Positions 571-23,002 of a stretch of DNA of 64,000 bases are shown here, in pieces. The notes under the pieces were generated by a model. The model did not search any database and was not told where the DNA came from. It saw nothing but the letters and a program-made list of their open reading frames with translations. Numbering within the stretch: the first letter of the stretch is position 1; the number at the start of each line of letters is the position of its first letter. Source of the stretch: an uncultured Coriobacteriaceae bacterium (GTDB lineage: Bacteria > Actinomycetota > Coriobacteriia > Coriobacteriales > Atopobiaceae); the NCBI GenBank assembly GCA_902773995.1, contig CACYGL010000009.1, positions 1-64,000 on the forward strand, read 5' to 3'. A program made the translations under genes and the position numbers.

Positions 571-1242
571 CTAGCGGTGGTCGATCTTCTTTGCGATGGC
601 GTCGCAGGTGCTCTGGATTACCTGCACCAGTATCACGATGAGCACGAGCGTGGCAATCATGACCTCGTCTTGATAGCGGTAGTAGCCGTAGCGGATGGCG
701 ATGTCACCCAGACCGCCCGCGCCAACTGCGCCCGCGATGGCCGTGTAGCCCAGGACCGCGATAAGCGTAATTGATACGCCGCGGACGATGGAGGGCAGGG
801 CCTCGGGAAGCAGGGCGGAGACCACGATGCGCGGGATGGATGCCCCGCAGGCCTCGGCTGCCTCGATTGCGTCACGTGGGACCTCGGCCAGGGACTGCTC
901 GACCATGCGTGCCACAAACGGCGTGGTGGAGAGCACCAGGGGAGGAATCACGCCCTGCACGCCGGTGGTGGTGCCCACCAGGGCGCGCGTGATTGGGAAC
1001 ACCGAGACCAGAAGGATGATGAACGGTATGGAGCGCCCAATGTTCACCACCCAGCCAAGCACGGCGTTGAGGGCGCGCATGGGGCGGAGCCCCCGCGGTG
1101 CGGTAACGCAGAGAACAACGCCCAGGAAGATGCCTATGACGTACGAGAAGGCCGTCGACACAAAGAGCATGACCAGCGTGTCGGCAAGCCCCTGGCCAAG
1201 AAGCGAGCCGTACTGGGCAAAGAAGGACGAGAGGCTACTCAT
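571..1242 (-). CDS. metI: Methionine ABC transporter permease MetI
   Basis: This 223-residue inner-membrane permease of the BPD_transp_1 superfamily forms the channel of the MetNIQ importer. The sequence shows five or more hydrophobic segments and the family's EAA-type coupling loop around EAAEACGASIPRIV, which docks onto the ATPase. Its length matches MetI proteins (about 215-225). The start ATG at 1242 has a good AAGGAGAG ribosome site. It overlaps the 3' end of metN by 8 bases, which implies translational coupling. The call is firm for the family; methionine as substrate rests on the metN/metQ neighbours. Confidence 0.93.
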   Translation of the reverse strand: MSSLSSFFAQYGSLLGQGLADTLVMLFVSTAFSYVIGIFLGVVLCVTAPRGLRPMRALNAVLGWVVNIGRSIPFIILLVSVFPITRALVGTTTGVQGVIPPLVLSTTPFVARMVEQSLAEVPRDAIEAAEACGASIPRIVVSALLPEALPSIVRGVSITLIAVLGYTAIAGAVGAGGLGDIAIRYGYYRYQDEVMIATLVLIVILVQVIQSTCDAIAKKIDHR

Positions 1243-1990
1243 TCCAGCTCTCCTTTCCCAGAAGCTGGCGGGTCACTTCGTGCTGCGGGTTGGCGAAGAC
1301 CTCGGCCACGCTGCCCTGCTCAACCACCTTGCCGGAGACGAGCACGGCAACGTCTTTGCAGATGTCCTCCACGACCTGCATGGAGTGCGTGATCACGATG
1401 ATCGTGACGCCCGTCTCGGCATTAATGGTGCGCAGGAGACGCAGGACCTGCGCCGTGCTTGCGGGGTCCAGGGCCGAGGTGGCCTCGTCGCAGAGGATGT
1501 AGTCCGGGTGGCAGGCCAACGCGCGGGCAATGGCCACGCGCTGCTTCTGGCCGCCCGAGAGCTGCGCCGGGTAGGAGCCGGCTCGGTCTGCGAGGCCAAC
1601 GCGGTCCAGGTAGCCCAGGGCCTCCTCGCGATTCTCCGTCGTGACCTTTCCTGTGCTGGCAAGGTAGGGGAAGCAGACGTTCTCGAGCGCGGTCTTCTGC
1701 GCGAGAAGGCCAAATCCCTGGAAGATCATCGCCACGTGGCGGCGGTACTCACGGAGCGCGGCCCCCTTGAGGTTGGTTACGTCGACGCCGTCGACCACCA
1801 CGCGCCCGGAGGTGGGGCGCTCGAGGAGGTTGAGACAGCGGACCAGCGTGGACTTGCCGGCACCGGAGATACCAATGATGCCAAATACGTCGCCGGTGGG
1901 GATGGTGAGAGACACGTCGTTTAGGGCGTGGACCTCATTGCCTCCCTCAAAGGTCTTGCAAAGATGTTCCAGAGAAATCAAAACGTGCAC
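1235..1990 (-). CDS. metN: Methionine ABC transporter ATP-binding protein MetN, short form
   Basis: This is the ATPase of the MetNIQ importer. Walker A is GISGAGKST (residues about 40-48), the signature is LSGGQKQR (about 145), and Walker B is ILCDEATSALD. At 251 residues it ends soon after the nucleotide-binding fold, so it lacks the roughly 90-residue C-terminal NIL/ACT-like domain through which Escherichia coli MetN is trans-inhibited by methionine. Feedback must therefore act elsewhere, for example at the leader described at 2102-2216. The start used is a GTG with only a weak upstream purine stretch; a TTG four codons further in is an alternative. First gene of metN-metI-metQ. Confidence 0.92.
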   Translation of the reverse strand: MHVLISLEHLCKTFEGGNEVHALNDVSLTIPTGDVFGIIGISGAGKSTLVRCLNLLERPTSGRVVVDGVDVTNLKGAALREYRRHVAMIFQGFGLLAQKTALENVCFPYLASTGKVTTENREEALGYLDRVGLADRAGSYPAQLSGGQKQRVAIARALACHPDYILCDEATSALDPASTAQVLRLLRTINAETGVTIIVITHSMQVVEDICKDVAVLVSGKVVEQGSVAEVFANPQHEVTRQLLGKESWNE

Positions 1991-2101: not shown

Positions 2102-2179
2102 CTAGCGACGAGGGTGCCCGGGCTTGGGCATCTGCTGGCGCATGAGCGCAAAGGTGTATGTGCTGGTCGTCGTATTCAT
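2102..2179 (-). CDS. Putative 25-codon leaderless leader peptide of the metNIQ operon
   Basis: This small frame starts at ATG 2179-2177 and ends at TAG 2104-2102. Its product begins MNTTTSTYT and carries methionines at positions 1, 13 and 17, the last two in LMRQQMPKP. There is no ribosome site, but the -10 box sits 8 bases upstream, so the transcript would start about two bases before the ATG. Directly after the stop, GCCCG (2099-2095) can pair with CGGGC (2057-2053). A frame with the same promoter spacing and an RQMP end precedes metY (21514-21564). Function is inference: a methionine-sensing attenuator is the obvious hypothesis. Confidence 0.5.
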   Translation of the reverse strand: MNTTTSTYTFALMRQQMPKPGHPRR

Positions 2180-2187
2180 GGTCCAAC

Positions 2188-2216
2188 ACTGTAGCTAGCG
2201 TCTGGCTGAATCTCAA
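2188..2216 (-). promoter_or_regulatory. Promoter for the metNIQ leader/operon
   Basis: TTGAGA (2216-2211), a 17-base spacer and TACAGT (2193-2188) form a sigma70-like promoter. Initiation about seven bases on would fall at 2181-2180, immediately before the ATG at 2179, so the first frame on the mRNA would be leaderless. Confidence 0.6.
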
Positions 2217-2271
2217 ATCGTTATTCACGTTGGCTAGTTATCGTCGCAGGCGATAGCAATGGTCGATGCGC

Positions 2272-21295: not shown

Positions 21296-21476
21296 GGCTT
21301 GCCCCTTCTGTTGGCCTGGTTGCGGGAGGTGCTGGCATAGTGTTCATGATGACAGCATATGGTATGGGATTGCAAAAAGCACCGACGGTGGCTTAATGAC
21401 CAGTTAGAAAGTCAGTAGTTCGTCGATATCTGTTTACACGATAACAACCTATCCACACCTTGTGGAACTACGAGGG

Positions 21477-21505
21477 TTCCTTCTCGTCGCAAGGGTGGCT
21501 ATAGT
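21477..21505 (+). promoter_or_regulatory. Promoter of the metY leader
   Basis: TATAGT (21500-21505) is preceded at 17 bases by TTCCTT, a weak -35, which may mean an activator is needed. The stretch GGCTATAGT plus eight bases plus ATGAA mirrors AGCTACAGT plus eight bases plus ATGAA upstream of metN. Confidence 0.55.
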
Positions 21506-21513
21506 TGGGAGCC

Positions 21514-21564
21514 ATGAAGAGGACACAGACATACCAACCAATTCCGGGCAGGCAGATGCCTTAG
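21514..21564 (+). CDS. Putative 16-codon leaderless leader peptide of metY
   Basis: The frame ATG 21514 to TAG 21562-21564 encodes MKRTQTYQPIPGRQMP. The start lies eight bases after the -10 box, so the message would begin about two bases before the ATG and translation would be leaderless. The next-to-last sense codon is Met. The stop codon forms part of the 5' arm of a hairpin (21563-21605). Spacing, start context and the RQMP ending match the frame upstream of metN. The coding sequence of metY begins 118 bases after this stop. Regulatory function is inferred. Confidence 0.5.
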   Translation: MKRTQTYQPIPGRQMP

Positions 21565-21605
21565 CCCGACCGCGAACAACAGTGACGTTGCCACGCGCTC
21601 GGGCT
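21563..21605 (+). promoter_or_regulatory. Leader hairpin overlapping the stop codon of the metY leader peptide
   Basis: AGCCCGA (21563-21569) pairs with TCGGGCT (21599-21605); after one mismatch CGCG (21571-21574) pairs with CGCG (21594-21597). A ribosome sitting on the terminal Met-Pro-stop codons would keep it open. No T run follows, so it would act by RNA switching or Rho rather than as a simple terminator. Confidence 0.45.
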
Positions 21606-21682
21606 CATCCGGAAGCACCAGCTATCAGCAATCGCGATATCACACCAATTCAGAGCATTATGAGAAACAGGGAGCAAACATC

Positions 21683-23002
21683 ATGGCTTTCGAACTCAAC
21701 CCCGACTTCGCCAAGGATCCTGAGAAGCACTTCAACACCCTGCAGGTCCACGCCGGCTGGTCCCCCGATCCCACCACCGGCTCCGCGGCACTTCCCGTCT
21801 ATGCTTCCGCTGCATTCGAGTTCAAGGACGCCGAGGACGGCGCCGCCAAGTTCGCCCTCTCTCGTCCCGGTAACGTTTATGGTCGTCTGACCAACACCAC
21901 CACCGATGCGGTGGCCGCCCGCGTGGCAGCCATCGAGGGTGGCACCGGCGCCGTTGCCGTCGCCTCTGGTCACGCAGCCGAGATTCTCGCCCTCACCAAC
22001 CTGGTGGGTGCGGGTGACGAGATCGTTGCCTCCGACTCGCTCTACGGTGGCACCTGGAACATCTTCCTGCACACCCTCGGCGACCTGGGCGTGAAGACCA
22101 CCTTCGTCGAGAACAACGACATCGACGCCTTTGTTGCTGCCACCACCCCCAAGACCAAGCTTTGGTACGTCGAGACCATCGGCAACCCCCTGGTCGACGT
22201 GGCGGACGTTCCCGCCATCGTTGAGGCCGCCAACTCGCTGCCCTCGCCCGTGCCCGTCTTTGTCGACAACACCTTCGCGACCCCGTACCTCTATCGCCCC
22301 GCCGAGGATGGCGCGGCTGTCGTGATCGAGTCCCTCACCAAGTGGATTGGTGGTCACGGTGCCACGCTGGGCGGCGCGGTTGTCGACACCGGCAAGTTCG
22401 ACTGGAAGCAGGATCCCGAGAAGTGGCACACCCTCGCCAAGCCCGACCCCTCCTATCATGGCCTGGTCTTTGCTGACGCGGCACCCGCAGCTCCCTTTGC
22501 CACCCGCGTGCTTGCCAACAAGCTCCGTGACTTTGGCCCCACGCTCTCTCCGTACGCGGCCCAGCTCATCGGCCTTGGCATCGAGGACCTGTCTCTGCGC
22601 GTCCAGCGTCACGCCGACAACGCGCTCGCCGTGGCCAAGTACCTCCAGGAGAACCCCAAGGTCTCCTGGGTGCGCTACTCCGGACTCGAGGGCGATCCCT
22701 CGCATGAGGTTGCAAGCCGCATCCTGCACCACGGCTTTGGCGGCGTAGTGGTCTTTGGCGTCAAGGGCGGCCGTGAGGCTGGCCTCAACGTGGTGAACAA
22801 CGTGAAGCTCTTCACGCACCTTGCCAACGTGGGCGATGCCAAGTCCCTCATCATCCACCCTGCCTCCACCACGCACTCCCAGCTTACGGCCGAGCAGCTC
22901 AAGGCTGCGCACCTTTCCGAGGACCTCATCCGCCTTTCCATTGGCATCGAGGACGTGGACGACATCATCGCCGACCTCGACCAGGCGCTCTCCAACGCAT
23001 AG
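21683..23002 (+). CDS. metY: O-acetylhomoserine sulfhydrylase (homocysteine synthase)
   Basis: This 439-residue Cys/Met-metabolism PLP enzyme replaces acetate of O-acetyl-L-homoserine with sulfide to give homocysteine, the direct-sulfhydrylation route to methionine. The PLP lysine is K220 in ESLTKWIGGHG. Other conserved parts are RPGNVYGRLTNTT, ASGHAAEI, DSLYGGTW, VDNTFATPYL, the long insert typical of the O-acetylhomoserine group (about 240-275), and HPASTTHSQL near the C-terminus. Length fits MetY (about 430) rather than MetB/MetC (about 390). GGGAG lies upstream of the ATG. The long leader carries a putative peptide frame and hairpin, shared in design with metNIQ. Confidence 0.93.
   Translation: MAFELNPDFAKDPEKHFNTLQVHAGWSPDPTTGSAALPVYASAAFEFKDAEDGAAKFALSRPGNVYGRLTNTTTDAVAARVAAIEGGTGAVAVASGHAAEILALTNLVGAGDEIVASDSLYGGTWNIFLHTLGDLGVKTTFVENNDIDAFVAATTPKTKLWYVETIGNPLVDVADVPAIVEAANSLPSPVPVFVDNTFATPYLYRPAEDGAAVVIESLTKWIGGHGATLGGAVVDTGKFDWKQDPEKWHTLAKPDPSYHGLVFADAAPAAPFATRVLANKLRDFGPTLSPYAAQLIGLGIEDLSLRVQRHADNALAVAKYLQENPKVSWVRYSGLEGDPSHEVASRILHHGFGGVVVFGVKGGREAGLNVVNNVKLFTHLANVGDAKSLIIHPASTTHSQLTAEQLKAAHLSEDLIRLSIGIEDVDDIIADLDQALSNA

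Follow-up and report, generated by a model that had tools for sequence, protein, structure and literature searches.

The stretch of DNA studied here raises the question whether the short open reading frames (ORFs) that precede its metY and metN genes are regulatory leaders of a common design and, if so, how they might read the supply of methionine. Both lie in what we call the window, the whole stretch of 64,000 nucleotides that was analysed, from an uncultured Coriobacteriaceae bacterium whose nearest named relatives are Olsenella/Tractidigestivibacter. An earlier note on this DNA had described a recurrent promoter and start at two sites, and the letters agree exactly with that description: GGCTATAGT, TGGGAGCC and ATGAA follow one another at 21497-21518 on the forward strand before metY, and AGCTACAGT, GTTGGACC and ATGAA do so at 2196-2175 on the reverse strand before metN. 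The ORFs that start there would encode the peptides MKRTQTYQPIPGRQMP and MNTTTSTYTFALMRQQMPKPGHPRR, respectively, and the features of both loci are collected in Table 1. When the joint -10/ATGAA pattern, which was designed post hoc from the two sites themselves, was searched with one mismatch, these sites were its sole occurrences in the window (shuffling expects 0.03), and with no mismatch they were the only ones in the 2.2 Mb genome, which was covered by pattern and profile searches. The gene names given in the note also stand, MetY scoring above the TIGR01326 cut-off and MetN, MetI and MetQ having methionine ABC transporter models as their best NCBIfam matches, with scores below the curated cut-offs. 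A further MetY-like gene is present in this genome (G000:C59:4827-6095, 44% identity).

Table 1. Features of the metY and metN loci in window coordinates.
Feature	Position	Strand	Details	Basis
Operator-like inverted repeat, metY	21425..21445	+	GATATC-N9-GATAAC, upstream of the leader promoter	Sequence; spacing kept in relatives
-10 hexamer, metY leader	21500..21505	+	TATAGT, 8 nt ahead of ATG	Sequence
metY leader ORF	21514..21564	+	MKRTQTYQPIPGRQMP, then stop; probably leaderless	Sequence, profile search, amino-acid constraint on GRQMP
Internal Met codon, metY leader	21556..21558	+	Single; two codons ahead of stop/hairpin	Sequence
metY leader hairpin	21563..21605	+	Arms 21563-21574 and 21594-21605; 5' arm begins in stop codon	Folding z -2.1, helix test, covariation
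C-rich spacer	21606..21675	+	From hairpin to metY ribosome-binding site; candidate Rho entry region	Sequence
metY	21683..23002	+	O-acetylhomoserine aminocarboxypropyltransferase, 439 aa	PF01053; TIGR01326 above cut-off
Operator-like inverted repeat, metN	2237..2257	-	GCTATC-N9-GATAAC, upstream of the leader promoter	Two places in genome; relatives
-10 hexamer, metN leader	2188..2193	-	TACAGT, 8 nt ahead of ATG	Sequence, relatives
metN leader ORF	2102..2179	-	MNTTTSTYTFALMRQQMPKPGHPRR, then stop; probably leaderless	Sequence; relatives at 24/30 metN loci
metN hairpin P1	2053..2123	-	GCCCGG (2123-2118) with CCGGGC (2058-2053); 5 nt past last Met codon	Folding
metN stem-loop P2	2018..2043	-	Second stem-loop, limits approximate; candidate attenuator stem without U-tract	Folding
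metN	1235..1990	-	Start GTG 1990 or TTG 1981; metI (571-1242) next	Best protein-model matches

Leader ORFs precede methionine genes across the Coriobacteriia

Where the earlier note had proposed a leader family of two members, comparison with related genomes upholds the family and makes it wider. In the upstream regions examined within the window's family, the Atopobiaceae, leaders precede metY at 20 of 28 loci, with peptides of four classes: GRQMP-stop (the window's own), TLMP-stop, CMQGPG and MKKKHxYNxLICxGLFM. Met-containing leaders occur at 24 of the 30 metN loci of the family, almost all of them with MPKPG or a near variant, and these have up to seven internal Met codons (for example MDYAAAQIAMMAMMVMEMPKPGH). 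Environmental Coriobacteriia, with metY at ~56-59% identity, have upstream of this gene an ORF led by a Shine-Dalgarno sequence that contains 4-7 Met codons, several of them consecutive, and few other conserved residues (for example VMMMDMMMTRPGS). An internal Met was found in every peptide of all classes. Profiles made from the leader peptides only were then searched across whole genomes. With the environmental profile (A2, MMMDMMMT-PGS; 298 genomes of the class), metY was downstream of 30 of the 30 best matches, all at E < 1e-11; the MKKKH profile (A3; 140 genomes) gave 27 matches, of which 23 precede metY and the others uptake genes, one of them for an ABC ATPase and three for solute-binding proteins (one confirmed as PF00497, the other two assigned by sequence reading). 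The GRQMP profile (A5) returned 11 matches with E < 2e-6, all of them leaders of the window's metY class, the next match being at E 0.05. The note had supposed a link to sulfur genes, and with 30 of 30 and 23 of 27 matches preceding metY the matches are indeed non-random in this respect. Overall, the comparisons argue strongly that a class-wide family of methionine-gene leader ORFs is real.

Two single loci deserve mention here. At L246, a leader near 1482-1570 reads TYCCCICLGLFMPGPGLA, with four Cys codons, and lies upstream of a solute-binding protein gene, which points to a possible switch of specificity toward cysteine or cystine. Upstream of metY at L080 (Raoultibacter timonensis, Eggerthellaceae) we found ATGCTCTAG and then a strong AGCCCAGGC..GCCTGGGCT stem, hinting that the leader design extends to the Eggerthellaceae. 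Two RNA patterns were discarded during the searches: the first, ATGCNNWAGCCCGRGC, had many ATGCGGTAGCCCGAGC matches, a recurring stretch without leaderless promoter or Met gene, and ATGATGACCNNGCCCGG with one mismatch lacked specificity over the class, since all ten matches inspected were chance occurrences except for one known metY leader.

Promoters, leaderless starts and operator-like repeats

The spacing from the -10 box to the ATG is 7-8 nt in 10 of 10 distinct relatives of the window's metY leader class and 6-10 nt in 55 of 63 Atopobiaceae leaders. Since the 8 nt seen in the window leave almost no room for a 5' untranslated region, the metY and metN leader mRNAs probably start at the leader ATG or within 1-2 nt of it, a leaderless start being judged solely from this spacing. 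Near the leader start, at about +16 to +24, the element ACATAY is kept (21529-21534 on the forward and 2161-2156 on the reverse strand of the window) and is read in two frames, as TY in metY leaders and as HT in many metN leaders. The early T-Y that had been noted in both window peptides is thus there, but as a shared peptide motif it has in part to be given up, because metN relatives read ACATAY in the other frame; ACATAY is at least in part a nucleotide element, perhaps a CA-type enhancer of leaderless translation. Such translation is enhanced by CA-rich sequence after the start codon (reviewed in PMC9031893), which may explain the conservation of ACATAY.

Further upstream, the repeat TATC-N9-GATA was found at 16 of 28 metY and 19 of 30 metN loci of the family, compared with 0.2% of shuffled upstream regions. 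It is present also at loci that have no leader and, since it is kept there, a separate regulator protein of the methionine genes probably acts alongside the leader. The MKKKH-type metY loci L017, L025, L026, L028 and L029 are without this repeat, and several of them have CCTAG-N6-CTAG across the -35/-10 region instead, which suggests a different transcription factor at loci of this type.

A hairpin follows the last Met codon

The earlier note had read G-C pairs able to fold at the stop of the metY leader, and these hold up: AGCCCGA (21563-21569) pairs with TCGGGCT (21599-21605) and the stem is extended by CGCG/CGCG. In the leaders generally, the 5' arm of the stem usually lies 3-6 nt past the last Met codon which, given the established size of the ribosome footprint, places it beneath a ribosome stalled at this control codon. 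Across 21 distinct arm pairs, the metY stem of ~10 bp has 91.9% of its cells paired, a share reached by 0 of 1000 shuffles (73% with shuffling), and double-sided changes occur in 9 of its 10 pairs, covariation being counted on helix arms taken from the helix test. One metY subgroup has swapped the entire stem, from GCCCG..CGGGC to GGGGCAGG..CCUGCCCC (GGGGC..GCCCC). With a hairpin that covaries among relatives, the likeness of the leaders extends beyond the -10 region, to which the note had allowed that it might be confined. In the metN and environmental hairpins the outer six pairs are near-invariant, and covariation is seen for the inner stem of the environmental leaders; because the arms hardly vary, structure appears less firmly supported here than for the metY stem.

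The environmental leaders (30 sequences) have a further stem downstream, 3:4 (mean z -1.8), and an alternative 2:3 pairing between both stems that is weakly better than in shuffles (mean z -0.75). Folding of the window's metY leader gave the first stem only and no convincing antiterminator (2:3) pairing. In some MKKKH leaders (L026, L029, L170 and L171) the 5' arm pairs either with a 3'-arm copy at the stop or with a second copy ~60 nt on, the two alternatives being mutually exclusive. Searches of Rfam returned zero RNA-family matches, both at the gathering threshold and at E<=1.

Constraint acts on codons in some leaders and on the peptide in others

Control codons are enriched in the metN and environmental metY classes: Met accounts for 12.2% of codons in metN leaders (P 7e-23) and 17.4% in environmental metY leaders (P 5e-42) against 2.5%, P values that count related sequences as independent. 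The window's own peptides are short and, taken alone, their enrichment is non-significant (P 0.12 and 0.32). In metN and environmental leaders the stem-adjacent codons CCC, AAG, CCC and GGG are near-identical even at synonymous sites, and in the metN leaders pS is not above pN. Given such near-invariant synonymous sites and the richness in Met codons, the constraint on these leaders is one at the RNA and codon level and follows the logic of a classical attenuator. The proposal of R-Q-M-P as a motif common to metY and metN was not borne out, since the residues ahead of the last Met vary in metN relatives (Q, E, G, R); the invariant part near this Met is the nucleotide string ATGCCCAAGCCCGGGC.

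Atopobiaceae metY leaders retain no more than one or two Met codons. A short C-terminal stretch conserved at the amino-acid level was found in the metY classes only. Within the HxYNxLICxGLFM core of the MKKKH leaders, 57 synonymous changes stand against 2 non-synonymous ones, with drift at positions 4, 6, 9 and 13. In the window's metY class, GRQMP-stop has 8 synonymous and 2 non-synonymous changes and the part outside TY and GRQMP has 5 and 33, counts that, coming from nine distinct sequences, give an indication and no final answer. Free synonymous change with fixed residues argues for selection at the peptide level in these leaders and suggests a nascent-peptide role. Both mechanisms that the note had offered are accordingly supported, in different branches: attenuation at Met codons fits metN and environmental metY, and a nascent peptide fits Atopobiaceae metY.

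A model of ribosome-controlled attenuation and its alternatives

Our model builds on two observations: the ORF holds its Met codon(s) at a set position ahead of a hairpin that covaries, and the design is linked to methionine and sulfur genes throughout the class. We think it rather probable that metY and metN are under ribosome-controlled attenuation by the supply of Met and that, in the metY branch, the peptide acts in an arrest-like manner. Transcription would begin at or beside the leader ATG, leading to immediate ribosome loading. When Met-tRNA is scarce, the ribosome would halt at the Met codons with the hairpin's 5' arm occluded beneath it, and the operon would be transcribed; when Met is ample, it would complete the ORF, the hairpin would form and transcription would stop early by a weak terminator or Rho. 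In Atopobiaceae metY, the conserved peptide (HxYNxLICxGLFM, or GRQMP-stop in the window's genus) would partly replace the run of Met codons, most likely by promoting a stall at its Met codon, as arrest peptides do, with a lower threshold for stalling; MKRTQTYQPIPGRQMP and MKKKHTYNWLICLGLFMPKP may be such stalling peptides. It is conceivable, and we put it forward tentatively, that one RNA layout has switched its sensor from several consecutive Met codons, at which Met-tRNA is counted, to a dedicated nascent peptide that turns a single Met codon into a sensitive point of stalling. Equally provisional is the assignment of states, in which the environmental Coriobacteriia metY and the metN leaders would stand for the condition before the switch and HxYNxLICxGLFM and GRQMP-stop for the peptide state.

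The main rival to codon-based stalling is ligand-dependent arrest, in which the metY leader would sense free Met or SAM in the exit tunnel, much as TnaC senses tryptophan, and the Met codon would be no sensor of starvation. Strong conservation of residues up to the Met codon, free synonymous change and the Met-Pro-stop end of the window-class peptide all speak for an arrest of this kind, but relatives of similar layout before metY carry 4-7 Met codons, several consecutive, and little other conserved peptide; such Met-rich and otherwise unconserved relatives point to codon sensing as the shared principle, and we regard pure arrest as unlikely. Somewhat less likely still is classical attenuation at Met codons and nothing else, with the conservation of the metY peptide as a by-product of constraints on the RNA. 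Such an account sits well with the metN and environmental leaders, given their strong enrichment in Met codons and stem-adjacent codons near-invariant even at synonymous sites; in the MKKKH and GRQMP leaders, however, synonymous sites vary while residues are fixed, which is the reverse of an RNA constraint, and one or two Met codons are left.

A metabolite-binding RNA (a SAM riboswitch or T-box) that incidentally holds a short ORF would account for hairpins conserved before methionine genes, but appears very improbable, as Rfam has no match even at the permissive threshold, the hairpin sequence is replaceable (including the swap of the entire stem described above) and the conserved residues and Met codons require an ORF. 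The amino-acid-level conservation of the MKKKH peptide might also be that of a small functional protein acting in trans; its last conserved residue is locked to the start of the hairpin, which would be needless for such action, and it occurs only directly upstream of metabolic genes, so that we give this idea hardly any credence. Chance likeness of two promoters with spurious short ORFs could be entertained for the window peptides by themselves, short and statistically weak as they are, but it is refuted by the comparative data, that is, by conservation over many genera with specific downstream genes and a covarying hairpin, and its probability is negligible.

The output step

As to how transcription might stop under ribosome-controlled attenuation, the reading that we favour, no U-tract terminator was found after the window hairpins, and a loose scan detected a U-run in just 15 of 70 leaders. 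In the low-GC metN leaders L136 and L137 a stem runs into a T-rich tail (CTCTTTTGTTTGTT in L136). The spacer between hairpin and metY has a class mean base content of 36% C and 21% G, and a rho gene is present; the stop could be brought about by a terminator free of a U-tract or by Rho acting on this C-rich spacer. Sequestration of the Shine-Dalgarno sequence is not supported, as predicted pairing and accessibility were unchanged when the hairpin was blocked by masking.

Significance and comparison with known systems

No described Met leader peptide was found among the open-access papers that the search covered, and in a 2005 comparative survey of Actinobacteria no conserved RNA regulation was detected at methionine operons (PMC1262725). 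That the metY branch uses a new peptide of the arrest type is credible. If confirmed, gut and environmental Coriobacteriia would govern methionine synthesis and uptake via the translating ribosome, partly on leaderless mRNAs, and a family of arrest peptides would be gained from the metY branch. Should the switch of sensor be true, the status of methionine (or SAM) would be reported by a new family of arrest peptides, and intermediates of the switch would survive in genera living today. Once confirmed, the metY branch would also exemplify the transition from a codon-counting attenuator to a peptide sensor; the transition is directly testable because both states and mixed forms coexist, sometimes within one genome.

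In other bacteria, genes of this kind are controlled by SAM riboswitches and Met T-boxes; unlike these RNAs, the Met leaders are without Rfam match, and sensing is apparently by the translating ribosome. TnaC (PMC8429421) resembles the window's class in its conserved short peptide with a Pro-stop end (GRQMP-stop), a downstream amino-acid gene and a possible Rho step, but sequence similarity is not established and stalling in the Met leaders is a prediction; TnaC, moreover, induces on tryptophan excess (PMC8429421), whereas the Met leaders would be expected to induce on shortage. In the classical trp, his and ilv attenuators (E. coli; ilvB in Corynebacterium, PMC10272879, and M. tuberculosis, PMC13236596) control codons precede mutually exclusive stems. 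The Met leaders, too, are short ORFs immediately upstream of an operon, their translation being suggested by codon constraint, and in the environmental metY leaders stems 1:2 and 3:4 are seen and a 2:3 alternative is plausible; the Met leaders differ in that most lack a U-tract terminator (no intrinsic terminator of this type follows the window metY hairpin), that the Atopobiaceae leaders start leaderless and that the control codons are those for Met. The system that comes closest, on our analysis, is that of the mycobacterial polycysteine ORFs, which are leaderless (Canestrari et al. 2020, doi 10.1111/mmi.14498, as represented in PMC9031893 and PMC13236596). As far as these two accounts describe them, those actinobacterial ORFs couple the downstream genes, by way of control codons, to a sulfur amino acid, as the Met leaders would too; judged by the -10-to-ATG spacing, the Met leaders likewise are predicted to lie at the 5' end of their transcripts. 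The Met leaders, in contrast, use Met instead of Cys (a Cys run was seen in L246 alone among the leaders read), belong to the Coriobacteriia, have a covarying hairpin directly after the Met codon, include one branch with peptide conservation at the amino-acid level and show no predicted sequestration of the Shine-Dalgarno sequence.
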